64,000 nt of DNA from Candidatus Altimarinota bacterium. Lineage in GTDB: Bacteria; Patescibacteriota; Gracilibacteria; UBA4473. Under the pieces are notes generated by a model that did not search any database, was not told the DNA's origin, and saw only the letters and a list, made by a program, of their open reading frames with translations. Positions 23,385 to 64,000 of the stretch are shown here, piece by piece. Position 1 is the stretch's first letter. Each line of letters starts with the position of its first letter. The DNA lies in assembly GCA_020631075.1 (NCBI GenBank), contig JAHDHX010000003.1, positions 1-64,000 on the forward strand, in the 5' to 3' direction. The translations under genes were made by a program, and so were the position numbers.

Positions 23385-24842
23385 ATGGAATTCCAAGTCA
23401 AACGCATCGGTGAAGAGACCCCCCGCACGCCCTGGGGGTGGCTGGTGCGTTGGATGGGGCGAGGCAAAGCCCTGCTGGTGGCGGGGATCCTCCTGCTGGT
23501 GGTGGGGGTGGCCACGGCCCAGGTGGTGGTGACGCGCGTGCTGCCTGACGCGGGGGGGGTGCTGCCGACGCGGAGTTTTTGGAGTAATCCGCTGGAGCAC
23601 ACGGCGGACGGGGTGACGAATCTCCTCATCCTTGGGAATGCGGGCTGGGGGGAGGAGGGGGCCCTGCTGACGGACTCCATCATTGTGGCGTCGATAGACC
23701 CCAAGGTGCCCAGTGTGACCATGCTGAGCCTGCCGCGTGACCTGTGGATGGCGGAGAGCCCGCTGGGGGCGTGGAAGCTCAATAGTATCTTTAGCCGAGG
23801 GTACAGCCGCTATGGCGAAGACCGCGGGCTGGAGATAGTAAAAGAGACGGTGGGCGGGTACCTCGGGACGGAGGTGCACTACGCGGCGATGGTGAATTTT
23901 GACCTCTTCACTGAGATGATCGACGAGCTGGGTGGGGTGGATATATACGTCACGCAGGATATATATGACACGCAGTATCCCGCGGCCAATTACCAGTACC
24001 AGACGTTTTATGTCCAGCGGGGGCAGCAAACGATGGACGGTGACACGGCGCTGAAATATGCGCGGTCACGGCAGACGACGTCTGACTTTGACCGTGCCCG
24101 ACGGCAGCAGGACCTCATTAAAGCCATTAAGGCCAAGGCGGAAGCGCTGGGGATCTTGGGCAATGCGGCGAAGCTCAAGAATTATTATGGGTTGTACCGT
24201 GAGAATGTGACGTCTGACCTGACGATGTTTGAGATCAGCAATCTGGCCAAGCTGGCCCTGCGGATCGACCGTGAGCAGATCAACCACCTCGTGCTGTCGA
24301 ACAACGTGGCCGACCCTGGGGGCATCCTCTGGACGCCTGACCCAGGGTGGTATGGGGGGCAGTTTGTGCTGGCGGCGGTGTCAGACGACCAGCTGGCGGA
24401 CTTAGTCAACCTGCAGCTGGGGCACCCGCAGGTGACGCTCGAAAAGGCGCAGGTGACGGTGCTCAATGCTTCTGACCGTGAGGGCGTGGCGCGGCGCAAT
24501 GCGAATTACCTGAACCAGATCGGGATACGGATAGACGAGGTCGACAGCTGGCCGCAGCAGCTGCCCGCCCCAGAGGGGATAGGAATATGGGTCAAGGACA
24601 GTGAACTGTATGGGGAAACGGCGGCGTATCTGGCGGAACTGTATGACGGTGAAGTAATAGAAAAAGCCGACTGGGGGGACCTCAACACCCAAACCAAAGA
24701 CCAGCAAGGCAACACCGTCAACACGCCACTGGCGCAATACAGTGATTTGATTTTAGTGCTCAACCCGCTCAAAAACACGACCACGAAGTCGGCCCCCGCC
24801 AAAACCGCCCCCAAAAGGGTGGCTCCGTCTGCGTCTGACTAA
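23385..24842 (+). CDS. LytR-CpsA-Psr (LCP) family wall-polymer ligase
   Basis: 485 residues. A membrane anchor lies at residues 28-50 (ALLVAGILLLVVGVAT). The LCP domain follows: TDSIIVASIDPKVPSVTMLS, the LPRDLW motif, FDLFTEMIDELGGVDIYV, and the MDGDTALKYARSRQTTSDFD motif with conserved Arg and Asp residues that bind pyrophosphate. A LytR_C domain occupies about 355-445 (VTVLNASDREGVARRNANYL). These enzymes attach polymers from polyprenyl phosphate to the wall. This is the first gene of the GC-rich core. The Thr/Lys/Pro-rich tail is probably disordered. Confidence 0.93.
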   Translation: MEFQVKRIGEETPRTPWGWLVRWMGRGKALLVAGILLLVVGVATAQVVVTRVLPDAGGVLPTRSFWSNPLEHTADGVTNLLILGNAGWGEEGALLTDSIIVASIDPKVPSVTMLSLPRDLWMAESPLGAWKLNSIFSRGYSRYGEDRGLEIVKETVGGYLGTEVHYAAMVNFDLFTEMIDELGGVDIYVTQDIYDTQYPAANYQYQTFYVQRGQQTMDGDTALKYARSRQTTSDFDRARRQQDLIKAIKAKAEALGILGNAAKLKNYYGLYRENVTSDLTMFEISNLAKLALRIDREQINHLVLSNNVADPGGILWTPDPGWYGGQFVLAAVSDDQLADLVNLQLGHPQVTLEKAQVTVLNASDREGVARRNANYLNQIGIRIDEVDSWPQQLPAPEGIGIWVKDSELYGETAAYLAELYDGEVIEKADWGDLNTQTKDQQGNTVNTPLAQYSDLILVLNPLKNTTTKSAPAKTAPKRVAPSASD

Positions 24843-52253: not shown

Positions 52254-52343
52254 GGAGAGGTGCCGGAGTGGTCGAACGGGCACGCCTGGAAAGCGTGTGT
52301 GCCAGCAATGGTACCGAGGGTTCGAATCCCTTCCTCTCCGCCA
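52254..52343 (+). tRNA. tRNA-Ser (anticodon GGA)
   Basis: 90 nt with long variable arm and encoded CCA. Acceptor GGAGAGG/CCTCTCC, anticodon loop CTGGAAA, T-loop GTTCGAATC. The 3' end faces the low-GC right arm. Confidence 0.96.
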
Positions 52344-52675: not shown

Positions 52676-52922
52676 GGTTCGAATCCCTCTCCCTCCGCCA
52701 GCCCGACCTAATAATTGCCTTACAGCCCTTAATTATGAACCCTAATAGGATTTATGAACAATAATTGCATACAGCCTTTCGTACTACGGGAAAACTCGAT
52801 TCTTTAGTCATAGACTATCTTCGTGCGATTCTGTGTGCCCATATACTTCATCGCTAAATTTTGATGAAATTGTCTCCTCTTTCAGAAGTCTGTAGCAATC
52901 AAATCGAGAAAGATGTTGGAGT
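52676..52922. repeat. tandem non-coding repeat, copy 2
   Basis: Starts with GGTTCGAATCCC-type T-arm and an acceptor end CTCCGCCA that copy tRNA-Ser with three mismatches in 25. The remainder matches copy 1. The tRNA body is absent, so this looks like an attachment-site or tandem-integration scar. Downstream to 52958 there is only an A/T-rich tail. Confidence 0.75.
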
Positions 52923-52958: not shown

Positions 52959-53666
52959 TTAAGTGTAATATTCTCGTGTGCTCATGCGCCCGTGGCAGTA
53001 CTTTGAAATAGCCACATTTACCGCACTATCAAAGCATGGAAAATCACGAAACCATGACGGCAGACAGGTATTGAATTTTACTTCCATTTCGATGACATCG
53101 ACCCGCTGGAGCGGATGCGTGACTACGTCGGGCGAAAATAAGCGAAAATCTTGGGTGTTGGCCCGCAGGTGCTTGTCAAACGTGATGCGGATCTCGTTGT
53201 AATTCAGCTTATACACGTCACGGATGTAATCGACTATCACAACTGGGCGAAAATATTTTCGCTTCAAATCAAAATAAATCGACACAGCATCGGCTGATTT
53301 TTGCGCGAGCAGGCAATCATATTCCCCTCGAATGATCTGCTCTGCCTCTACTCTCGTCACCTTCACCGAAGTTTTTTTTACAAAATTATTCCACTTGCGT
53401 TTACGTTCAAATTTGGCCCAGTTCATATCGGTTCCATAAATACGCAGACGGTATTTGTCGCGAAACTCTATGCCGTCCAGCTTCTCTTCGACGGAGCTGT
53501 CATACATATCATCAAAATACAAACTGCGGATAAAGTAGCCCCGTTCGGCTTTTTGGTGGCTGTCTTTTTGCATCAGCGAGCCCAGTGCGGCCGACGCGGT
53601 TTCGTAGTCGGCGCGGCTGATATAAAATTTGAGCTCGTGGCGTTGGACTTTGAGGGCGGTTTTCAT
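52959..53666 (-). CDS. VTC-domain polyphosphate polymerase-like protein
   Basis: 235 residues. The VTC tunnel motifs are all recognisable: VQRHELKFYIS, FIRSLYFDDMYD, DKYRLRIYG, FERKRKWNNFVKKTS, RPVVIVDYIRDVY, IRITFDKHLRAN, VIEMEVKF, and AISKYCHGR. These Lys/Arg residues bind polyphosphate and the Glu a metal. It may make polyphosphate from nucleotide at the membrane, next to the DUF4956 protein of the same operon. It overlaps the upstream lamin-tail gene by four bases. Confidence 0.9.
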   Translation of the reverse strand: MKTALKVQRHELKFYISRADYETASAALGSLMQKDSHQKAERGYFIRSLYFDDMYDSSVEEKLDGIEFRDKYRLRIYGTDMNWAKFERKRKWNNFVKKTSVKVTRVEAEQIIRGEYDCLLAQKSADAVSIYFDLKRKYFRPVVIVDYIRDVYKLNYNEIRITFDKHLRANTQDFRLFSPDVVTHPLQRVDVIEMEVKFNTCLPSWFRDFPCFDSAVNVAISKYCHGRMSTREYYT

Positions 53667-54172
53667 GGCTTGTCTTTTTTATTTCTATCTCCGGGTGTGA
53701 GGGTCGAAAACGTAAAGGTTTCGCTTTCACCGTCAGGAAAACGCCCAACGCTTTGCGTGCGGGTTTCGTCTGCGGCCACCAGCGGCAGGGTGTCGATGAG
53801 GGTCACGCCATCTGTATCAAAAAGTGAAAGGGTTTCGCCATTTTTGAGGCCAAAATTTGCCTGTAAGGGTGTAAGGGTGTCGTCTGAGCCTTGCCCCCCT
53901 ATCACCACAAAACTCTTGGGGTTAAGGGCAATGTCTTGCTCTATCTGATATTTTTGGGGCTCTTTGCTGTCATCTGTCAGATACATACCTTTCAGGTTTA
54001 CCGCGTGGAGCTTCGGGTTATAAATCTCTATCCAGTCTTGCCCGTTGTTATTGGCAAAAGAAACTTCATTGAGAGTAATATTTCGGGTGATTCTTTTTTG
54101 GTACCAGACAGCGCCCCCCAGCATCACCAAGAGCGCCAGAAAAGTGAATGATTGCATCAGAGTTCGGTTCAT
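53663..54172 (-). CDS. membrane-anchored lamin-tail (LTD) domain protein
   Basis: 169 residues. An N-terminal helix (LMQSFTFLALLVMLGGAVWY) anchors it or acts as signal. The remainder is one lamin tail domain: ITLNEVSFANNNGQDWIEIY, NLKGMYLTDDS, FGLKNGETLSLFDTDG, and TRTQSVGRFPDG, the Ig-like layout used by bacterial secreted LTD proteins. In other bacteria such domains occur with CotH kinases and VTC proteins. It is extracellular and probably binds a surface ligand. Confidence 0.8.
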   Translation of the reverse strand: MNRTLMQSFTFLALLVMLGGAVWYQKRITRNITLNEVSFANNNGQDWIEIYNPKLHAVNLKGMYLTDDSKEPQKYQIEQDIALNPKSFVVIGGQGSDDTLTPLQANFGLKNGETLSLFDTDGVTLIDTLPLVAADETRTQSVGRFPDGESETFTFSTLTPGDRNKKDKP

Positions 54173-54208
54173 CTTTTGAAAGGGAATAAACGAATGAAGT
54201 AAGTTCTT

Positions 54209-55786
54209 TTATCGCCCGCCGCCACGCGCGCGCTCACCTTCGCCATATTGGGTTGTCATGCCGTCTAAGGTTATATCCAGCACTTTGGCGTCATTGACCA
54301 GCAGTGAGTAAGTCATGCCCTGCACCAGATCGGGTGAAGAATAAGTAATAGACTGAAACACTTTGGTAGGGGTGTAGGTAAATATCTCTGTGCCAGATTC
54401 GTCTTGCAGGGTGATGGTGGTGCCTGCGCTTTGGAGGGTTTCGAGGTTGAGCTGCAGGGTTGGCTGGGTGGAAGTCTCCTCTGGCATTTGCGCCATGCCC
54501 ACACTGCCCACAGCCAGCAATGTGCCGCCGTTTATGATAAACTCATCATTTGCGTCGAGCGCGCCTTCAACTGACGTTGTCGGGCCTTCTACGGTTGTGT
54601 CGCCGCCATTTATCACCATTGACCCGTTGGAGTCGAGCCCATCGCCTCCGGCATTTACCATCAGGGTGCCGCCGTTTATGACCAACAGGCCCTCGGCAAA
54701 AGCGGGTTCATTGCCCCCGCCGCCCCCTCCCCCGCCCCCATCATTTGGCCCTCTGCCGCCGGTGGGGCGCTCGCCTCTAGCGGGGCGGGCTTCGTCTGTG
54801 GTGGCAAATGCGCCCACCACTTGGGCCGCTTCTTCGCGGGCTACACGTTCGAGCTTCGATGCCGAACGAGCCGCTTTGGCCGCTTTTTCTTCTTCTGTTT
54901 GGTAACCCATGTAAGCAATATTGATGCCGTCATCTTCGGCCACAATGTTTACCACCCCACCGTCTATGGTGATTGTCTGGCTTTCGAGCCCTTCATACGA
55001 CGCTAAGATATCAAGCGTGCCGCTGATAAAATCAAGCGACGTAACGGCATGCACGGCGTCGTCTCCGGCGGTGATGGTAAACGCACTATCGGTAAACACC
55101 ATAAAGCCCTTGCCTTCGGTTTCATAATTATCGGTCTTGAGCGCGTCACCCCCAGCGGTAATGATGAGCATGGAATTTTCTACTTCGATGCTGTCTTTGC
55201 CGATTATGCCATCATCAGCCGCGGTCACTTCTATTTGTGCATCACGAATGTCGAGATCATCTTTGGTGGTTATGCCGTCATTGAGGTTTGCTGTTATAGC
55301 CAGGGTGGCGTTTTCACCGCCTTCGATTTTGAGGTCTGCCATGCTGTAGATGGCCGCATTGGGAAAATCTTGGGTGTCTTCTTCACTCGTTCGGTTATCG
55401 GTAATTGTATTGGTAGAATTATCGGCCAAAGTGATCGTCACGTCTTTGGCTTCCATAATGTGTATCGGTGCTTGGCTGGTGCTGGTTATTGCTACATTTT
55501 CCAAAATAATTTCCACGTCATCTTCTTTGGTCGCCGCTATTACTATAGGTTCGGAGGTGCCTGTGAAAGTATAAGTGCCGGCTTGGGTTATGGCATCTTC
55601 GGGCAAAGATGTTTCGGGGGCTGGGGCTTCTTCCGCTACAGGAGTTGGGGATTTCCCAACCACTGGGGCCGAGGCTTGAGTGAGCGTGTCTTGAGTCGCG
55701 GCAGGAGCCTCTGGCGGCGCTTGTGTACAACCCGTGAGCAGTAAAATCGTACAAAAACAGAAAGCGGGAATGGGTAAGTTTTTCAT
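54209..55786 (-). CDS. lipoprotein with Cthe_2159-like beta-helix carbohydrate-binding domain
   Basis: 525 residues. A lipobox signal ends LLLTGCTQ. A Pro/Ala spacer follows, then beta-helix turns: AGTYTFTGTSEPIVI, DVTITLADNSTNTITDN, DGITTKDDLDIRDAQIEVTA, DALKTDNYETEGKGFMVFTD, GDDAVHAVTSLDFISGTL, and GGDGLDSNGSMVINGG. This 'G-x-D-[AG]-[IVL]' ladder is the mark of Cthe_2159, a calcium-rich polygalacturonate-binding fold. An insert of GGGG-type low complexity interrupts at ~345-360. It lies between the LTD and DUF4956 genes, which matches the known neighbourhood. Confidence 0.85.
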   Translation of the reverse strand: MKNLPIPAFCFCTILLLTGCTQAPPEAPAATQDTLTQASAPVVGKSPTPVAEEAPAPETSLPEDAITQAGTYTFTGTSEPIVIAATKEDDVEIILENVAITSTSQAPIHIMEAKDVTITLADNSTNTITDNRTSEEDTQDFPNAAIYSMADLKIEGGENATLAITANLNDGITTKDDLDIRDAQIEVTAADDGIIGKDSIEVENSMLIITAGGDALKTDNYETEGKGFMVFTDSAFTITAGDDAVHAVTSLDFISGTLDILASYEGLESQTITIDGGVVNIVAEDDGINIAYMGYQTEEEKAAKAARSASKLERVAREEAAQVVGAFATTDEARPARGERPTGGRGPNDGGGGGGGGGNEPAFAEGLLVINGGTLMVNAGGDGLDSNGSMVINGGDTTVEGPTTSVEGALDANDEFIINGGTLLAVGSVGMAQMPEETSTQPTLQLNLETLQSAGTTITLQDESGTEIFTYTPTKVFQSITYSSPDLVQGMTYSLLVNDAKVLDITLDGMTTQYGEGERARGGGR

Positions 55787-55800
55787 GAGAGAGAAAAGAA

Positions 55801-56481
55801 TTATTCGGCAAATTCGCCGTTACTAGAAATTAAAATACAGCTCTGTACACCGTGAATGTTTCTTATTTTTTGCAGAGCCTTTTCGTGATTTTTTTGTGTC
55901 ACTTGCACCTCAATTACTTTTTCGGTGTAGTCTTTTTTGCGGGTGTCGGTGCGCACAAAGCACTTTTTAAATTCCTTTTGGAGTATTGGCTCTATATCGG
56001 AATACGTCCCCTGTGCATATTGCAACACCAGCATGTAGTTGGGCGTGTTGGTGATTTGGCGCGAGAGTAAGAAAACAACCAAGGCAATAAAGAGGGTCAT
56101 AAGAATAGAAAGCTCAAAAAACCCAACGCCGTTTATGACCCCAATGCTAATGGCCCAAAAGATAAAGGCGGTGTCTTTGGGGTCTTTGACCGCAGTGCGA
56201 AAACGCACAATAGACAGCGCCCCCACCAGCCCGAGTGATAGCACCAGATTTCCGCTGATGCCGATCATCAGCGCATTAACAATTAGTGCCACCATGACCA
56301 GCGTGGTATTGAAATTTTTAGAGTACAGCACGCCGTTGTAGGTTTTTTTGTAAACCCAAAAGATAAACAAAGCGATCAGCAAAGTAATTAAGAGTGACAA
56401 AGCGATCTGCACCACGCTTTGGGTTGAACTAATCAAGATTTTATCAAGCGAGAGCAATTGGCTCAGATCCGTTCCGTTCAT
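55801..56481 (-). CDS. DUF4956 membrane protein
   Basis: 226 residues. Four membrane helices lie in the first ~150 residues (QIALSLLITLLIALFIFWVY, ISGNLVLSLGLVGALSIVRF and others). The block GALSIVRFRTAVKDPKDTAF is the DUF4956 signature. A cytosolic ferredoxin-like tail follows (EVQVTQKNHEKALQKIRNIH). DUF4956 is regularly encoded with VTC polyphosphate polymerases and may act as their membrane partner. It starts this four-gene operon. Confidence 0.9.
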   Translation of the reverse strand: MNGTDLSQLLSLDKILISSTQSVVQIALSLLITLLIALFIFWVYKKTYNGVLYSKNFNTTLVMVALIVNALMIGISGNLVLSLGLVGALSIVRFRTAVKDPKDTAFIFWAISIGVINGVGFFELSILMTLFIALVVFLLSRQITNTPNYMLVLQYAQGTYSDIEPILQKEFKKCFVRTDTRKKDYTEKVIEVQVTQKNHEKALQKIRNIHGVQSCILISSNGEFAE

Positions 56482-56752
56482 GGGAGTGTAATGAGTGAAT
56501 GTGTATGGAAGAGATGCTCTTCAAAGTGTTTTACGGACAAGCCCTATCTTTGTATTCAAAAAAGTCTGTTTTTTCGAGTATCACGTTGTGGTCTTCAACT
56601 GTATCGGTGTGGATGGTGCCCTCAGAGAGCAAGACAGAAAAAAAATAATCACGCATTGTTCTATATTGTTGACCCCCCAGAAGACACATTTCGATTTTGC
56701 TTGTTTCATCAATACGGTATACGCCCATTTGCACAAACGTATTCAATAATCT
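56482..56752. other. gene-free stretch, promoter region of the VTC operon
   Basis: 271 bp between the DUF4956 start and the end of the membrane partner gene. A minus-strand frame of 71 codons at 56531-56746 has no family features and may be chance. No terminator or tRNA is seen. Confidence 0.35.
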
Positions 56753-57463
56753 TTACCTCTGCGGTGGTTCTGTGGGTCTGAGTATCGGGCTGGGCGTAAA
56801 AAAGAGAATCTGCTTCGCCCGAAAAACTCCATCAGAGATAATTTCTCCTCGTATCTTTATTGTTCGGTTTGGTTCAATTTTTTCAGTTTGTGGGGCAAAT
56901 TCCACCTGCCAGCGACCGAGTGTGGGAGCATTTAATACAAAACCCGTTTCATTGATTTCTATTATTCGCCCCATGAGAAATCCTTCTGTCGGACGAAGCC
57001 AGAAATTCGCGCGGCGATCAAAAATAGATTCGTACGCGTTAATATTTCGCCCAAGAAAATGGTCAATCCTCTCGCCTAGAGAAGAGTTGATAAGCCAGTA
57101 CCCCAGAACAATTTGCGGCAAAACTATGATCAGAAACCATTTTGGGGGCGTGAGGAGATAGCCATGGTGAATTTTTTTTCCGAGTTTTATGGCCAGCACG
57201 CTGGCAAACACAAAAGCAATAAACCAAATAGCAAACAGATCTAAATGAAAAATAGAGATAATATCAGACCAAGAGTCTTGCACCAACGGAAGTGCCTCGA
57301 TCGTATGCCCCAGACCCCACATGAGAGCCCAGCTGAAAACCCCTAAAATAAAAAATATAATCAACGCAAGCCATTTTATCACCTTCCATACGAAAAAATG
57401 ATGCCAGGGGGTTTGCTTTTTTTGTGCTATTTGCTTCAAAACCAAATCACTTATATGAGTCAT
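56753..57463 (-). CDS. membrane protein, possible anti-sigma partner
   Basis: 236 residues. Four membrane helices in the first 130 residues (WLALIIFFILGVFSWALMWG; FAIWFIAFVFASVLAIKL; WFLIIVLPQIVLGYWL), then a soluble beta part (GFVLNAPTLGRWQVEFAPQ, RTIKIRGEIISDGVF). It overlaps the ECF sigma gene by four bases, the usual place for an anti-sigma factor. The cytosolic N-terminal ~25 residues are too short for a classical zinc anti-sigma domain. No family was recognised. Confidence 0.6.
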   Translation of the reverse strand: MTHISDLVLKQIAQKKQTPWHHFFVWKVIKWLALIIFFILGVFSWALMWGLGHTIEALPLVQDSWSDIISIFHLDLFAIWFIAFVFASVLAIKLGKKIHHGYLLTPPKWFLIIVLPQIVLGYWLINSSLGERIDHFLGRNINAYESIFDRRANFWLRPTEGFLMGRIIEINETGFVLNAPTLGRWQVEFAPQTEKIEPNRTIKIRGEIISDGVFRAKQILFFTPSPILRPTEPPQR

Positions 57464-58023
57464 GCGATGGGGTTAAGATGAGAAAGTTTTTGTTTTAATG
57501 CAGTTCTACCACGGTTCAAATATGTTGAGATAGTCCCCTTCGGTTTTTCTAAAATATGGGCTATTTCCATAAGCGTTTTCCCTTCAAAGTAATGCAAAAT
57601 AAGAGCATCTTTATATTCAGATTTCAAATTTCCTAAGGCTTTTTTTACTTCAACAGCATTGGCTTTTTGTTCGATTTCATCGAGGAGTGAGTGATTATCG
57701 GTCAGTAGCCCAAGCGCTGTCTCATCGTGTGTTGTGTTTTGGTTGTTTCGCTTTTTTTTCCTCAGATCATCATAGGTCGCATTTCGAGCTATGCGATAAA
57801 GCCAGGTGCTAAAAGCAAAAGAGTGGTCGTAGCCCTGTAGATTTATCCAGACCTTTACAAATATATCTTGCAGCACGTCATCGCTTTCTGGTGGTGTGTA
57901 GCCCGAAATGCGATAGATAAAGGATCTGAGCGGGTTTTCGTATTTCACGACTATGGCCCCAAAAGCAGCTGGCTGAGCGATTGCTTTCACAACAAGCGAT
58001 TTGTCTTCATTTTCCACAGGCAT
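57460..58023 (-). CDS. ECF-family RNA polymerase sigma factor
   Basis: 187 residues from the ATG at 58023 (MPVENEDKSLVVKAIAQ). Region 2 is AFGAIVVKYENPLRSFIYRI then DDVLQDIFVKVWINL and FSTWLYRIARNATYDDLRKK; region 4 is ILHYFEGKTLMEIAHILEKP with GTISTYLNRGRTALKQ. Layout is normal for ECF sigma factors. It is followed by an overlapping membrane protein, its probable regulator, and preceded by the YHYH-SLH gene 80 bp upstream, which may be a target or co-transcribed. Confidence 0.93.
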   Translation of the reverse strand: MPVENEDKSLVVKAIAQPAAFGAIVVKYENPLRSFIYRISGYTPPESDDVLQDIFVKVWINLQGYDHSFAFSTWLYRIARNATYDDLRKKKRNNQNTTHDETALGLLTDNHSLLDEIEQKANAVEVKKALGNLKSEYKDALILHYFEGKTLMEIAHILEKPKGTISTYLNRGRTALKQKLSHLNPIA

Positions 58024-58103
58024 GTATTTCCACGGATATTTTTTTATAAAAAATAGAAAAATATCAGAAAATATCAATGCATGAGGGGTATGTATAAGCA
58101 TGT

Positions 58104-60572
58104 CTATCGAGGTGGACCGCCAGCTGATCGTCCACCTCTTTGATTACTGGCGCTGGCGTCACAGCTGCTGGCATTTTCGCTGGCGCAGCCGTATTCACCT
58201 GTAAAACATCCCAGAAACTCATTTTTTCCCGTTTCGGCGATGTGGTAATGATAGCCCTCCGTTTCCGAATAATGCCCTTGGCATTCATCTAAATCTGTTT
58301 CATCTGTTTGCCGATACATGCCGTATCCGTCCAGCGCAATCCCAATTAGCGCCTCATGATTTGTCACCGCAATCTCTTTCGAGCAGCCTGTGTGCTCATG
58401 ATAGTGGTACCCCACATGCAGGTTCACATGGCCGCCACAGTCGTCAAACGGGGCAATGGTGTAGGCGGACAGAATGTCACTGGTTGGGGCTGAGGCGTCA
58501 AACCGCGTGCCGTTAAACGAAACCCCGGTGCCAGACTGGCTAATGCGCTGAGGTGTACCTGCATTTACGGGCATAACTGGAATAGTATACGTAATTTCTG
58601 GTATGGCGTCCATGTACTCCAAGCGGCATTCTACGCAGTGGTTTTGGTACTCTGGGTCGACATCCGGCCGCGCGGCGGCCGCGCACGCCACGGCGCTGTC
58701 GGTGACATTTATTTCTCCGGTTGATTCGTCAAACAGCTGCCAGTTTGGGTCATTATAAAAATCACTCAGGTTTGCGATAAACTCACCACTCACGGGGTTA
58801 ATCTCACCGCCATCGGGCCAGATGCCCCCCTGGGTGTCTGCATCGGCAATGTTGGTTGGGCACCACGGACCAATGGTGTGGTCGCGGGTTGCGTCTGGCG
58901 CAACGGTAAACTGATAGCAACTCGTCTTGGTTCCACCAGAAAGCGTACAGTCAACGGTCGTTACCCCACTCGTCAAGCTGCCCCCAAAGAAATTTTCTAT
59001 TTCATCAGCGGTAAATGCCCCCCCAGCAAAAGCCATTGTTGTAACAGCATTTTTAGGGTTATTGGTCTGTCTGCCCAGCAAGGCATCTTGTTGCATGATC
59101 AACCTATACACCACCTCTGCAAAGGCTTCACGCGTCATGGGCTCGTCTGGAGCCAGCGTATCAATTAACTTAGTTTCGGTGGCGTACTTGGCATATGGCG
59201 CAAACCAGGCTTTGCCCTCTGTGGCACTACGAATCGGCACCCCAAAGCTTTCCAGGAGCATCTTCAGCAGCTCGGCTTGGTTTACCGTTTCTACCGGGCG
59301 AAATGTTCCGTCTGGGTACCCCTCCACGATGTTTTCTTGTTTTGCTTTCGCAATATATCCGCCATACCACGCCGATGCATTAACGTCCGGAAAGGGATTT
59401 GTAGCGGTGTTTTCAGGATCTATAGACAAGGCTTCCAGCAGCGTTTTGATAGATTCTGCCCGGTTAATTGGACGACTCGGGGCAAAGGTTCCGTCGTCGT
59501 TTCCCGTCATAATATTTCTCTGCGAGAGCAGATTCACTGCGGCTGTGTTGGTTATTTGGTCTTGATCCGAATAGGTTTTAACTGCGCTCAAACTCCCATT
59601 ATAAGCAATATAATTTTGTGCTTGTTGGGGAATTATGTGTGTATGGCTGTTATCTTCATGCCTGTGCTGATCATCATGTGCATGCGTATGGTCTGTGGTA
59701 TGATTATGCTCATTTTGTACTGGAACTTCATTGCGCGGTGGGCGCTCACCTCGAGGTCCGCCACGGCCTCCTTGGCCGCCTTGTTCACTGCCGCCAGGTG
59801 CTCCAAAGCTCGCATCAGCGTCGCCCCACAGGCACCGGGCAATGTATGGATATTCATTCGTAATTAGGTAGACCATCTCGCCGTTGTGCATCATTGCATT
59901 ACACTCATCTAAATCTCCAAGCCCTGCGATGTACTCGAAATCCTGTGTAAAGGTTCCGTCATATTCGCCCCCTAGCCCCCCATTGCGTGTGCCATTTTTC
60001 AGTCTGTAACTTGAATCGTAAGCGCCACTTTGGGAATAATACATCTTAAATCCGTCTGCTGCGTACCCAACATGCACCATGTCATCGCCGGTGTTTAACA
60101 GCGAAACAAGACCCGTGGGCGTGCCATGATAATGGTATTTTCCTGTGGGCTGCACATGGGCGTTGTTGGCATCTAGACCTAAATCTCGGGTGTCTTGTAG
60201 AGCTTCATACCGCCAGCTTCGATCATTCTCATATGTTTCGCCCGTGCCCGGCTGAAACACAATCCCATTCAGAGCAATGCCAACCACATTTGCCGGAGAT
60301 GAACTCGCGTTTTTTACAGGGTATTTTGTGACCCGAAAATCAACTTCTTGCTCTGAAATAGTATTTGGATTGCCCGGATTTGGAAATGCGCCTGTGTCAT
60401 GATTCGGGAGTCCATTTCCCTGAAAGTAGATATAAGAAGCGTCTTCTGTGATGGTGAAATTTGCGGTATTGGTATTTGTTTGGGCTGAGACTCGTGTAAG
60501 TCCCCAAGATAAAAGTGCTAGGCAAATACAACCACAAGCTATCTGGATATGTGTACGGTATGTGTGAATCAT
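58104..60572 (-). CDS. secreted YHYH-SLH-YHYH surface protein
   Basis: 822 residues from the ATG at 60572, which begins a signal-like stretch (IQIACGCICLALLSWGLTRV). A first YHYH domain holds VVGIALNGIVFQPGTG and TGKYHYHGTPTG. A His-rich linker follows (NEHNHTTDHTHAHDDQHRHE). SLH repeats come next (IMTGNDDGTFAPSRPINRAE; IVEGYPDGTFRPVETVNQAE). A second YHYH domain closes (CGGHVNLHVGYHYHEHTG, IGIALDGYGMY, TEGYHYHIAETG). It is probably wall-bound through SLH, with metal-binding ability in the His-rich linker. The YHYH function is unknown. Confidence 0.85.
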   Translation of the reverse strand: MIHTYRTHIQIACGCICLALLSWGLTRVSAQTNTNTANFTITEDASYIYFQGNGLPNHDTGAFPNPGNPNTISEQEVDFRVTKYPVKNASSSPANVVGIALNGIVFQPGTGETYENDRSWRYEALQDTRDLGLDANNAHVQPTGKYHYHGTPTGLVSLLNTGDDMVHVGYAADGFKMYYSQSGAYDSSYRLKNGTRNGGLGGEYDGTFTQDFEYIAGLGDLDECNAMMHNGEMVYLITNEYPYIARCLWGDADASFGAPGGSEQGGQGGRGGPRGERPPRNEVPVQNEHNHTTDHTHAHDDQHRHEDNSHTHIIPQQAQNYIAYNGSLSAVKTYSDQDQITNTAAVNLLSQRNIMTGNDDGTFAPSRPINRAESIKTLLEALSIDPENTATNPFPDVNASAWYGGYIAKAKQENIVEGYPDGTFRPVETVNQAELLKMLLESFGVPIRSATEGKAWFAPYAKYATETKLIDTLAPDEPMTREAFAEVVYRLIMQQDALLGRQTNNPKNAVTTMAFAGGAFTADEIENFFGGSLTSGVTTVDCTLSGGTKTSCYQFTVAPDATRDHTIGPWCPTNIADADTQGGIWPDGGEINPVSGEFIANLSDFYNDPNWQLFDESTGEINVTDSAVACAAAARPDVDPEYQNHCVECRLEYMDAIPEITYTIPVMPVNAGTPQRISQSGTGVSFNGTRFDASAPTSDILSAYTIAPFDDCGGHVNLHVGYHYHEHTGCSKEIAVTNHEALIGIALDGYGMYRQTDETDLDECQGHYSETEGYHYHIAETGKNEFLGCFTGEYGCASENASSCDASASNQRGGRSAGGPPR

Positions 60573-60916
60573 AGGAAAAAAAGTTATGTCATAGTTGTAT
60601 ACGTTTGATTTCATAATCGTATTCAAAAAAGTTAAATATACACAACTATTCCTGTTGTTAAACATAGCTGTCCCGTAAAAGCCTTTAGCAGTTTCTGCTT
60701 CTGCGTCACCGTGTCATGCCTTAACTGATGCGCTACATACTGCTCGAGTGTCATCGGCCTTTAGTCAGATCTCATACTTTGCGGCATCTGGTTAAATAAC
60801 TTCAGTTGGGCGTAAAAATCTGAATCTATATCAATGCTGTTTGCTAAATTAATTTTTTCTGCGCGAATATATTTTGCTTTGCAAATCTTTTTACCGCCCC
60901 ACTTCGTGCACATGCA
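60573..60916 (-). pseudogene. remnants of genes cut by the IS630 insertion
   Basis: On the minus strand, a coding-like tail from the IS edge reads CTKWGGKKICKAKYIRAEKI to FNQMPQSMRSD and stops at 60761. Ten bases later a second short frame (MTLEQYVAHQLRHDTVTQKQ, about 39 codons) runs into the YHYH leader region. The first is open through the IS end, so it looks like the 3' end of a gene that the IS interrupted. I do not recognise either family. Confidence 0.45.
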
Positions 60917-61799
60917 TAGCCAAGCAAGTATAAAAATACATAATAGAAGCAGTGACATATTCAGTAGATTTTCGGCAACGAGTAATGAGGATGAGAAAAA
61001 AAGAAAAACTGACGTATGAGCAAACAAGTAAACGATTTGGTGTAGCAATAAGAACACTATTCAACTGGGCAAAAAAGTTAGAACCAGAGAAAACAAGAAA
61101 TAAGCCAGCAACAAAAATAGACATGAAGGCACTGAAAAAAGATGTAGAGGAGAATCCAGATCGATTTCAGTACGAAAGAGCCAAAGATTATGGGGTAACA
61201 CCATGGGCAATAGGACTTGCGTTGAAACGACTAAAAATAAGCCGAAAAAAAACTCTGTATCATCCCAAGACTGACATTGTGAAGCGAGTAAAGTTTCAAG
61301 GCAAGTTGCTCTGGCACCAATACTTTGAAAAACGGCCAATAGTTTATCTCGACGAAAGCGGATTTGCGGTAGATACGCCACGGCCACATGGTTATAGCCA
61401 AAGAGGTGCACGTTGTTATGGATGCAAAGATTGGCATGCACGAGGGAGACTCAATGCTATTGGAGCCATCATCGACTTCAAATTCATCACCGTATCACTG
61501 TTTGATTCCTACGTCGACTCGGAGGTATTTTTTGCTTGGTCACAGCAAGACCTTCTTCCAAAGCTTCCTCCTCATTCAGTCATTGTCCTCGATAATGCAA
61601 CCTTCCACAAACGTTCGGACATTCTCCAGCTGTACCAAAACGCTGGTCATACCCTTCTCTTTCTTCCTCCGTACTCTCCTGACCTTAATCCCATCGAACA
61701 AAATTGGGCTCAAGCCAAATCCATCCGCCGTCGTTCTCTTTGTTCTCCCTTTAATCTTTTTTCTGCTCCTAATTATGCAAATTTATAATTGTCTAGCTA
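60917..61799 (+). mobile_element. IS630-family insertion sequence
   Basis: The transposase gene is flanked by imperfect terminal inverted repeats: ATAGCCAAGCAAGTATAAA on the left and, read inward on the other strand, ATAGCTAGACAATTATAAA on the right (15 of 19 match). The ends coincide with TA dinucleotides at 60917-60918 and 61798-61799, the usual IS630 target. Confidence 0.75.
60952..61788 (+). CDS. IS630-family transposase
   Basis: 278 residues from GTG at 60952. N-terminal helix-turn-helix: RQRVMRMRKKEKLTYEQTSK then RFGVAIRTLFNWAKKLE. The DDE domain has IVYLDESGFAVDTPRPHGY, SVIVLDNATFHK, and FLPPYSPDLNPIEQNWAQAK, so the three acidic residues are present. The frame is intact and ends 11 bp from the right IS end. 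It is shorter than two-frame IS630 elements but looks complete. Confidence 0.93.
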   Translation: MTYSVDFRQRVMRMRKKEKLTYEQTSKRFGVAIRTLFNWAKKLEPEKTRNKPATKIDMKALKKDVEENPDRFQYERAKDYGVTPWAIGLALKRLKISRKKTLYHPKTDIVKRVKFQGKLLWHQYFEKRPIVYLDESGFAVDTPRPHGYSQRGARCYGCKDWHARGRLNAIGAIIDFKFITVSLFDSYVDSEVFFAWSQQDLLPKLPPHSVIVLDNATFHKRSDILQLYQNAGHTLLFLPPYSPDLNPIEQNWAQAKSIRRRSLCSPFNLFSAPNYANL

Positions 61800-61973: not shown

Positions 61974-62633
61974 TCAATATTTCAAGTGTTGAAGTCTATT
62001 TTCAAAAAAGGACGTATCACAATTATTACAATCGCATTCAGAATATCTTTGAATGTGTTTGATCAGTTCGATGTCTTCTTTGTATCTATCGTGAAGTTGT
62101 AATGCGCAGAGAATTTCTTTAAAACATTCAGCGTCGTTGAAATTAAGAAACTGCGTTACACCTTCTTTTTCTATTATGTATTCTTGTAAGATTTCGACGT
62201 ATATGTCTCTGAATGGTCGAAATTTTTCTATATTGATGTCTTTCAGAGCTTCGTATTGTTGATCATGGTTGTCTAAATGTGAAAAACGCTTGTTTCTTGC
62301 GTTTTTTAAGATGGTGAATTCAGATGACAGCGTTTTGAGCTTTTTTTCTAGTTCACGTCTTTTTTCTGTTCTTAGCTGGCTGAGGAGTACGTGTACTCCT
62401 TTTGTTTGAGAGTTGTCGCTGTGGTGCAATTTGCAGATGGTAGTTGTGATAGTGGCATGTAACGACCAAGCGATTGTGTTGAATAATCCGGCACGAAGTT
62501 TTAGGCACTCTTTATTTTCTTTACTCTCTTGCTTTGAGGGGTCTGTTGCGTCCACCATTGCGTTTAGGAGCAGAAAGGATTTTTCAAGCATGAATATCTC
62601 ACTTTCGATGAGATTGGGATTGTCGTCACTCAT
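61974..62633 (-). CDS. HEPN/AbiU2-like helical protein
   Basis: 219 residues, all helical. The segment LKNARNKRFSHLDNHDQQYE carries an R-x5-H motif (RNKRFSH) of the HEPN RNase superfamily and resembles the 'iRNkr.aHlD' core of AbiU2-like proteins. C-terminal Cys residues (YSECDCNNCDTSF) are a local oddity. It overlaps the DNA methyltransferase gene by four bases, so the two are one transcript. A toxin that acts when modification or infection is sensed is a reasonable but untested idea. Confidence 0.6.
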   Translation of the reverse strand: MSDDNPNLIESEIFMLEKSFLLLNAMVDATDPSKQESKENKECLKLRAGLFNTIAWSLHATITTTICKLHHSDNSQTKGVHVLLSQLRTEKRRELEKKLKTLSSEFTILKNARNKRFSHLDNHDQQYEALKDINIEKFRPFRDIYVEILQEYIIEKEGVTQFLNFNDAECFKEILCALQLHDRYKEDIELIKHIQRYSECDCNNCDTSFFENRLQHLKY

Positions 62634-64000
62634 TTCTGTTTCTTCTCTTTAGCAACTAACCCCTCATACAACCCAAACAACAACTCCACCCGCTCGCTGT
62701 CGCTGGCAAAGGCAGCCTTGCGATACAACCCATCCACAGCCTTATCCAGCTTGGTGTGGGCGCGGCGCAGGCTGGGGGGCATGGTGAGCGGGTCATACAG
62801 ATCTGCCAAGCTGCTGTCGGGGTACTGCGCACGGGCGTCTAGCACGGCTTGCGCGAGGGTGGCTATTTTGTCTTGCTCTGCCTCGCTGGCATCTGCCCAA
62901 GGAAAGTTATTATAGACAATGTCTTTGCTGTATCTGTAATCACCCTTGAGTCGGCCACAGGTGTAGCGCATCCACGCCATGTGCATTTGGCTGGTGAGGA
63001 CGCCGAAGTGGTAGAGGGTGGCGTTGGGCATAGAGAAGCAGAGATCACTCAAGACTACATCCTTAGACATGTAACCAAATGGCACGTATTTACGCCGTTC
63101 TGATGAAACTCGTGGCATCATTATATAATCAGAATCTGGTTGGTTTATTTGTTTAAATAATGTTGGATATTCAGCAGCATCACGAGTGGATTTTGCGACA
63201 CTCGCCAAACGAAATTCTTTGACCCCTTGAATACGCTTTAGAACTGTTGGACATTTTTTGATAAGAGCTGGATCGGCTTTGTGCAACCATAAGCAGTACC
63301 GTTTCAATCGACGAATAAACTCACGAGAACCAATATACATTTTTACAAGTGGCTCGGCTTGCGGTTCATTTTTCAAAAGCTCATCTCTTTGCTCAGGACT
63401 CAAAACAAAATTACCACCATCTTTGGGCATGCTCCCAAGGGTTATGGCAGGCACGTCACAAAGAGGTTTTCGCCTGTGCTCCACAACCACGTTGCTACCC
63501 GCCACCAAATAAGGGCTAATAGTTTTAACTATTTTTTCATGTGGTTCAGCCTTCACGTTATCATATTCATAGAGGACTGCTTGCTTTGGTTTTACCAGCC
63601 CAAAGCCAATGATGACCACAAACACTTGGGCTTTTCCGCTGGCTTGGTTGTCCCATTTGAAGGTTTCATGTGCAAAGTGAATCTGCACCCCGTGATGCTC
63701 AATAAGATGCTTCCATAGAATGCAAACTTGCTCGCCTTGCGTGATGCTGTTGGTGGATACTAGCCCCACGGTTATATCCGTGCCGTCTATGTATTCAGCC
63801 GATTTCTCATACCACGCTGACACGTAATCTAGTGACTTCCACATTTTTACTTTGCCATCAAACACAGATTGCATATCTGCTTTTTGTTCTTTTGTTTGCC
63901 ATTGATAACCATAAAACGGCGGGTTGCCGATGATGTGGCTGCACTGGTCGGGTGGCAGCAGGCTTGCCCAGTCAACTTGCAGGGCGTTGGCGTGGGTGAT
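62630..64000 (-). CDS. class I SAM-dependent DNA methyltransferase (MmeI-like), N-terminus outside window
   Basis: At least 456 residues; the frame is open to the window edge, so the true start lies further on. The catalytic motif IV is CSHIIGNPPFYGYQWQTKEQ just inside the edge. SITQGEQVCILWKHLIEHHG, FVVIIGFGL, and the C-terminal recognition part (MPRVSSERRKYVPFGYMSKD, HFGVLTSQMHMAWMRYTCGR, YNNFPWADAS) are typical of the COG1002/MmeI group that joins N6-adenine methylation, and often restriction, in one chain. The N-terminal nuclease and SAM motif I are not visible. It is co-transcribed with the HEPN-like gene. Confidence 0.88.
   Translation of the reverse strand: MTHANALQVDWASLLPPDQCSHIIGNPPFYGYQWQTKEQKADMQSVFDGKVKMWKSLDYVSAWYEKSAEYIDGTDITVGLVSTNSITQGEQVCILWKHLIEHHGVQIHFAHETFKWDNQASGKAQVFVVIIGFGLVKPKQAVLYEYDNVKAEPHEKIVKTISPYLVAGSNVVVEHRRKPLCDVPAITLGSMPKDGGNFVLSPEQRDELLKNEPQAEPLVKMYIGSREFIRRLKRYCLWLHKADPALIKKCPTVLKRIQGVKEFRLASVAKSTRDAAEYPTLFKQINQPDSDYIMMPRVSSERRKYVPFGYMSKDVVLSDLCFSMPNATLYHFGVLTSQMHMAWMRYTCGRLKGDYRYSKDIVYNNFPWADASEAEQDKIATLAQAVLDARAQYPDSSLADLYDPLTMPPSLRRAHTKLDKAVDGLYRKAAFASDSERVELLFGLYEGLVAKEKKQK

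Follow-up and report, generated by a model that had tools for sequence, protein, structure and literature searches.

Gram-positive Pel clusters are accompanied by an accessory set of CotH, a polyphosphate polymerase and DUF4956, with or without DUF4832 (PMC7112168), and a cluster of VTC, membrane protein and CotH genes has been described in NELoc-2 of C. perfringens (PMC2879425). In the yeast polymerase Vtc4, the R-x-R pair R264/R266 is essential (PMC8749416). The stretch analysed here, referred to as the window, comprises positions 1–64,000 of contig JAHDHX010000003.1 from a Candidatus Altimarinota bacterium (class Gracilibacteria; assembly GCA_020631075.1). It carries seven minus-strand genes, in which a VTC-domain protein, a lamin tail domain (LTD) protein, a Cthe_2159 lipoprotein and DUF4956 stand beside an extracytoplasmic function (ECF) sigma factor, its membrane partner and a secreted YHYH-SLH protein. 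No published description of this seven-gene system was found in the searchable literature. The locus is read here, with moderate confidence, as one ECF-switched cell-surface module, an envelope- or metal-responsive regulon building a surface layer that handles polyanions and metal.

The seven genes form two tight runs, with a 271-bp gap between the membrane partner and DUF4956 (Table 1). The LTD and VTC genes overlap by 4 bp, as do the ECF and membrane protein genes, and the YHYH-SLH gene is 2 bp from the ECF gene; VTC and DUF4956 are in the same run, two genes apart. An earlier note on this DNA had given the same genes, coordinates, strand and two runs, and open reading frames and Pfam agree with it (Pfam matches were obtained for all but the membrane partner). 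Its proposal of a single regulated module is supported by a promoter-like motif common to both runs. The 1.46 Mb genome has four copies of GAATAC-N15/16-CGTA, three of them on the coding strand ahead of the runs: two precede DUF4956 and one precedes the YHYH-SLH gene. With a spacer of 14–17 nt, three copies are present in the window, all in those two upstream regions, against 0.13 expected, and 0 of 100 shuffles reach three; the motif was first spotted by reading the two upstream regions, and this count is not independent because two of the sites supplied the pattern. A pair of identical 7-mers, equally spaced, recurs in the two best sites; 4 of 3000 dinucleotide shuffles reach this agreement, and 2934 comparisons with other parts of the contig gave no such case. 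The stronger points for the motif are its locality within the whole genome and the third site.

In form (GAA, about 18 bases, CGTA) the motif is like SigW-type ECF promoters, and the closest NCBIfam model for the ECF factor is SigW, below cut-off. Relatives do not share the motif ahead of their ECF/anti-sigma pairs, and scans for sigma-70 promoters and terminators performed no better than shuffles. The start of the YHYH-SLH gene at 60572 is preferred over that of a longer open reading frame at 60665 because the motif lies at 60600–60624 and the signal peptide begins at 60572. The fourth genomic copy (C7:66224–66248, on the contig of the window) lies inside a plus-strand, and thus opposite-strand, coding frame 5.6 kb further on and was treated as chance. 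Both the architecture and the regulatory link are well supported, and the two runs belong together.

Table 1. Genes, domains and promoter-like motifs of the locus (window positions)
Feature	Position	Strand	Details
VTC-domain (polyphosphate-polymerase type) protein	52959..53666	-	235 aa; Pfam PF09359 E 3.5e-31
LTD (lamin tail domain) protein, N-terminal membrane anchor	53663..54172	-	169 aa; Pfam PF00932 E 6e-13
Cthe_2159 beta-helix lipoprotein	54209..55786	-	525 aa; Pfam PF14262 E 1.5e-61; LTGC lipobox by eye
DUF4956 membrane protein	55801..56481	-	226 aa; Pfam PF16316 E 9e-15
Promoter-like motif before DUF4956, proximal copy	56532..56557	-	GAATAC-N16-CGTA
Promoter-like motif before DUF4956, distal copy	56720..56744	-	GAATAC-N15-CGTATA
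Putative anti-sigma membrane protein	56753..57463	-	236 aa; no Pfam match
ECF sigma factor	57460..58101	-	213 aa; Pfam sigma70 r2 (8e-16) / r4
Secreted YHYH - His-rich linker - SLH - YHYH protein	58104..60572	-	822 aa
C-terminal YHYH domain	58305..58592	-	
N-terminal YHYH domain	59823..60338	-	
Promoter-like motif before YHYH-SLH gene	60600..60624	-	GAATAC-N15-CGTATA

The VTC domain of the window scores 109 bits against a curated cut-off of 23. A profile search was needed to match it to the Vtc4 structure because phmmer with the single VTC sequence against the PDB gave no match; a profile of VTCs from the class and from Polaribacter matches yeast Vtc4 catalytic-domain structures with an E value of 5e-19. 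Residues R69, K71, R73, R75, E87, K89, K98, R149, R160, E195, K197 and K222 are kept; they include those aligned with the R-x-R pair (R264/R266 of yeast; PMC8749416) and with the E-x-K, K, R, R, E-x-K and SK positions that make up the rest of the Vtc4 active site. The alignment supports the VTC-polymerase assignment of the earlier note; of the roles offered there, the surface-mineral one gained no support, and polyphosphate synthesis is putative. Having no SPX domain and, judged by eye, no transmembrane segment, the protein would plausibly have DUF4956 as its membrane partner; DUF4956 itself shows a weak MgtC/SapB-like match at its C-terminus. Of the proposed surface-facing partners, which are likewise supported, the LTD protein resembles the LTD portion of the CotH-LTD fusions of flavobacterial clusters, and Cthe_2159 is known to bind polygalacturonate (PMC6712302).

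Two stretches of the YHYH-SLH protein match YHYH (PF14240, 5e-55) and two match SLH (PF00395, 2.5e-25). For its N-terminal half the match is the main flavobacterial YHYH protein (53 %), for its C-terminal half a second YHYH protein (49 %; both among the neighbouring genes of L104), and both YHYH types of the flavobacterial cluster are therefore present in it. The second protein is encoded immediately upstream of the main one in eight Winogradskyella loci; since the halves match two adjoining genes, the window protein is a two-partner fusion on an SLH anchor. The N-terminal domain has a confident predicted fold (pLDDT 93, pTM 0.89) that resembles viral YHYH proteins only, and Foldseek against the PDB returned no match (best E 0.5; TM ≤0.14 among the best). 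Three histidines and several acidic residues (H107, H115, H117, D102, D141 and others) are invariant across 45 sequences, a pattern consistent with the prediction of YHYH as a Zn-dependent hydrolase (PMC7824862). A full-text literature search found no functional study of YHYH.

ECF-type sigma domains and an adjoining membrane partner are both present in the window. Relatives of the partner are found in 36 of 99 genomes, and its homologues adjoin an ECF gene in 14/14 loci examined. Structure prediction (pLDDT 78) and Foldseek indicate membrane helices, a cytosolic N-terminus and a C-terminal OB-fold. From this adjacency and topology, anti-sigma is the natural reading, and the protein is therefore designated a putative anti-sigma factor that would bind and inhibit the sigma factor.

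A YHYH-domain scan over 85,000 species genomes returned mostly marine Flavobacteriaceae. At 33 of 45 Flavobacteriales YHYH loci, an ECF gene is followed on the same strand by a gene for a small membrane protein (putative anti-sigma, no Pfam match). SCO1/SenC and a Spy-like protein (the latter by appearance; no Pfam match) are each present in 35 of these loci, CotH in 28, sulfatase in 6, Cthe_2159 in 5 and VTC-DUF4956 in 3, all of them in Polaribacter; several of the CotH proteins carry LTD domains. Every domain type of the window module except SLH therefore has a counterpart in the flavobacterial clusters, and the association recurs across two phyla. Co-occurrence of the VTC and ECF/YHYH parts elsewhere, on which the earlier note had made its proposal depend, is thus found in Polaribacter; YHYH, which it had not recognized as such, is a recurrent partner rather than an oddity. 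In 29 flavobacterial genomes, 18 of 29 CotH genes lie ≤10 kb from YHYH (0.26 expected), as do 3 of 4 VTC genes (0.06 expected). Both linkages are beyond chance, with p-values that are indicative only because the genomes are related. Non-flavobacterial YHYH loci returned by the scan (SAR116, Actinomycetota, Verrucomicrobiota, Planctomycetota and others) have no CotH or VTC nearby.

Within the class, VTC is present in 25 of 99 relatives, usually with DUF4956 (adjacent in L041 and many others) and often with CotH, including CotH-SLH fusions. The nearest relative bearing the set is G016, from the same family; one of its contigs, of 5.7 kb, carries LTD-VTC-DUF4956-Cthe_2159-CotH-SLH, with VTC 69 % and DUF4956 72 % identical to those of the window, and an N-type YHYH fragment is at the end of a separate contig. 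Joining these contigs (C30 and C74) as one locus was considered and could not be shown. In a tree that sampled the class and Flavobacteriaceae only, the G016 CotH joins the CotHs of flavobacterial YHYH clusters and is separated from other CotHs of the class (support 99/99). The remark that CotH is missing from the locus was right, as the whole assembly (95.9 % complete) yielded no match to PF08757; the matching-type CotH in G016 had been overlooked. Acquisition of the VTC gene horizontally from Flavobacteriaceae was rejected, the nearest VTC being that of G016 and flavobacterial VTCs being just 20–22 % identical. Few genomes of the class, 13 of 353, have YHYH. It is fused or adjacent to a sulfatase in four class genomes, two of them TGA-recoded (L098:1–2427, L097:8199–10409, L194:26–2353 and L192:6184–8888). 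Named relatives of the YHYH protein belong to 'Candidatus Gracilibacteria', which agrees with placing the host in that class. Some class relatives read TGA as an amino acid; L045–L053, mostly of this kind, have VTC with neither DUF4956 nor CotH nearby, a separate use of VTC.

The locus is located in a low-GC island next to a tRNA gene, a setting the earlier note had missed. GC drops from about 61 % to 38–50 % directly after tRNA-Ser (52254–52343), of which a 14-bp copy of the 3′ end is found at 52693–52706. Low GC persists to about 72 kb of the contig (C7:72000) and is followed by 56–63 %; other samples of the genome are at 53–59 %. An Rfam search returned the tRNA only, and no integrase is among the genes examined. 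An IS630-family transposase (60952–61788) lies about 300 bp from the YHYH gene. Additionally, a complete MmeI-type restriction-modification gene has an AbiU2-like HEPN gene immediately downstream (61974–64000, continuing to C7:65383), and the two are a probable defence pair. An operon further into the island (L032:5584–8535, equal to C7:65583–68534) encodes MauE, a very His-rich, CopM-like DUF305 protein, a thioredoxin-like lipoprotein and DUF6008, and looks like one for copper or metal handling. On the other side of the tRNA, positions 24000–52000 form a high-GC block (55–68 %) with strong positive GC skew and lower-GC DNA on either side.

The mechanism that we infer, in its signal, polymer, export step and YHYH activity alike, would run as follows. 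The membrane protein, through its putative anti-sigma role and OB-fold domain, would hold the ECF factor until an envelope or metal signal frees it. The ECF factor may then read the GAATAC-N15/16-CGTA promoters before its own operon (YHYH-SLH, ECF, anti-sigma) and before DUF4956-Cthe_2159-LTD-VTC. Inside the cell, VTC would make polyphosphate or a related phosphate polymer, with DUF4956 as the likely membrane partner accepting or exporting it. On the outer face, acidic polymers may be bound by the Cthe_2159 lipoprotein and by the LTD protein, and the YHYH protein, anchored in the S-layer, could act on that layer as an enzyme or binding protein dependent on a metal (Zn or Cu).

Several observations weigh against a single module of this kind, besides the derivation of the motif from two of its own sites. 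Assignment of the motif to this ECF factor rests on locality because the genome has five other sigma-70-family genes (six in all). None of the 14 other class loci with this ECF/anti-sigma family is beside VTC, CotH or YHYH, and the other YHYH copies of the class stand alone or with sulfatases; with the ECF and YHYH genes in other settings elsewhere, no other locus in the class sample has the arrangement of the window. Among the flavobacterial YHYH genomes, 25 of 29 are without VTC, which is therefore optional there, and the three in-cluster cases belong to a single genus. The best reading is of a module optional in composition, in which a synthase for a phosphate polymer would be coupled to surface proteins that bind acidic polymers or depend on metal.

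For its chemistry, the two likeliest frames are the handling of copper or other metal and the modification of an acidic glycan. A metal (copper) stress module is a tentative possibility. Here the ECF pair would sense metal or envelope damage, the His-rich YHYH-SLH protein and an anionic polymer (polyphosphate or acidic glycan) would bind surface copper, and polyphosphate would serve as metal buffer. The frequency of SCO1/SenC and Spy-like genes in the flavobacterial loci points in this direction, as do the His-rich linker of the window protein and the His-rich N-termini in Polaribacter; however, SCO1 has thiol roles too, and neither SCO1 (by Pfam) nor a Spy-like gene is among the genes of the window module. 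Likewise, the His-rich DUF305 operon is about 5 kb off in the same island (in Synechocystis, DUF305/CopM is known as a copper protein; PMC4335983), although island neighbours may be unrelated passengers. A sulfatase-YHYH gene of another genome, G013, is near a CsoR/RND-like set (by eye).

Somewhat more doubtful is modification of a surface polysaccharide, in which CotH/VTC/DUF4956-type genes would act on an acidic exopolysaccharide and YHYH, as a hydrolase or lyase, would cleave a sulfated or acidic glycan. The polygalacturonate binding of Cthe_2159 (PMC6712302), the sulfatases fused or adjacent to YHYH in the class and in 6 of 45 flavobacterial loci, and the company, by association, of the CotH set with Pel clusters (PMC7112168) agree with this; however, no glycosyltransferase cluster adjoins the window genes, and YHYH catalysis is a prediction. 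That an ECF/YHYH operon and a CotH-less VTC operon are merely neighbours in a mosaic island is improbable, since for all the IS630 element and MmeI gene of that tRNA-adjacent, low-GC island, and the separation of ECF/anti-sigma from VTC elsewhere in the class, the local motif is common to both runs, G016 has both parts, and YHYH, CotH, VTC, DUF4956, Cthe_2159 and LTD are associated in Flavobacteriaceae.

YHYH, DUF4956, bacterial VTC and bacterial LTD are widespread and essentially uncharacterized families. Linked in a single regulated unit that has a predicted promoter, and with the same parts present in marine relatives that can be cultured, these several orphan families become one testable pathway. 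For this locus of an uncultured lineage, it would also be a first prediction of an ECF regulon. More speculatively, the class and marine Flavobacteriaceae may have in common an undescribed ECF-switched surface system, in which YHYH, as a metal enzyme of new fold, would act on a phosphate-bearing or acidic polymer from VTC-DUF4956 that is CotH-modified where CotH is present.

Compared with the yeast VTC complex (Vtc4/Vtc1), the window shares catalytic-domain residues and the logic of polymerase plus membrane partner, but has neither an SPX domain nor a Vtc1 homologue; DUF4956 is another membrane protein, and the polymerase activity is putative. NELoc-2 likewise has VTC adjoining a small membrane protein in a surface-gene locus; unlike the window it has CotH and no YHYH, and a sigma-factor gene is listed nearby with no regulatory link described. 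With the Pel accessory set the locus has in common a VTC-type polymerase together with DUF4956 and a surface context, whereas it lacks CotH and Pel genes and adds YHYH-SLH, the ECF pair, LTD and Cthe_2159. The ECF-CotH-YHYH-MORN-SCO1 clusters of Flavobacteriaceae, for which no published description was found, share an ECF gene with membrane partner, both YHYH types, LTD (there on CotH), Cthe_2159 and, in Polaribacter, VTC-DUF4956. However, the window module has neither CotH nor SCO1, MORN or EF-hands, combines both YHYH domains with an SLH anchor in one protein and has another type of putative anti-sigma factor, and its ECF gene is the second of its run, whereas ECF is at the head in the flavobacterial clusters. 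Of the CotH-VTC-DUF4956 set, the window thus has VTC and DUF4956 and lacks the CotH kinase, which is present in G016.

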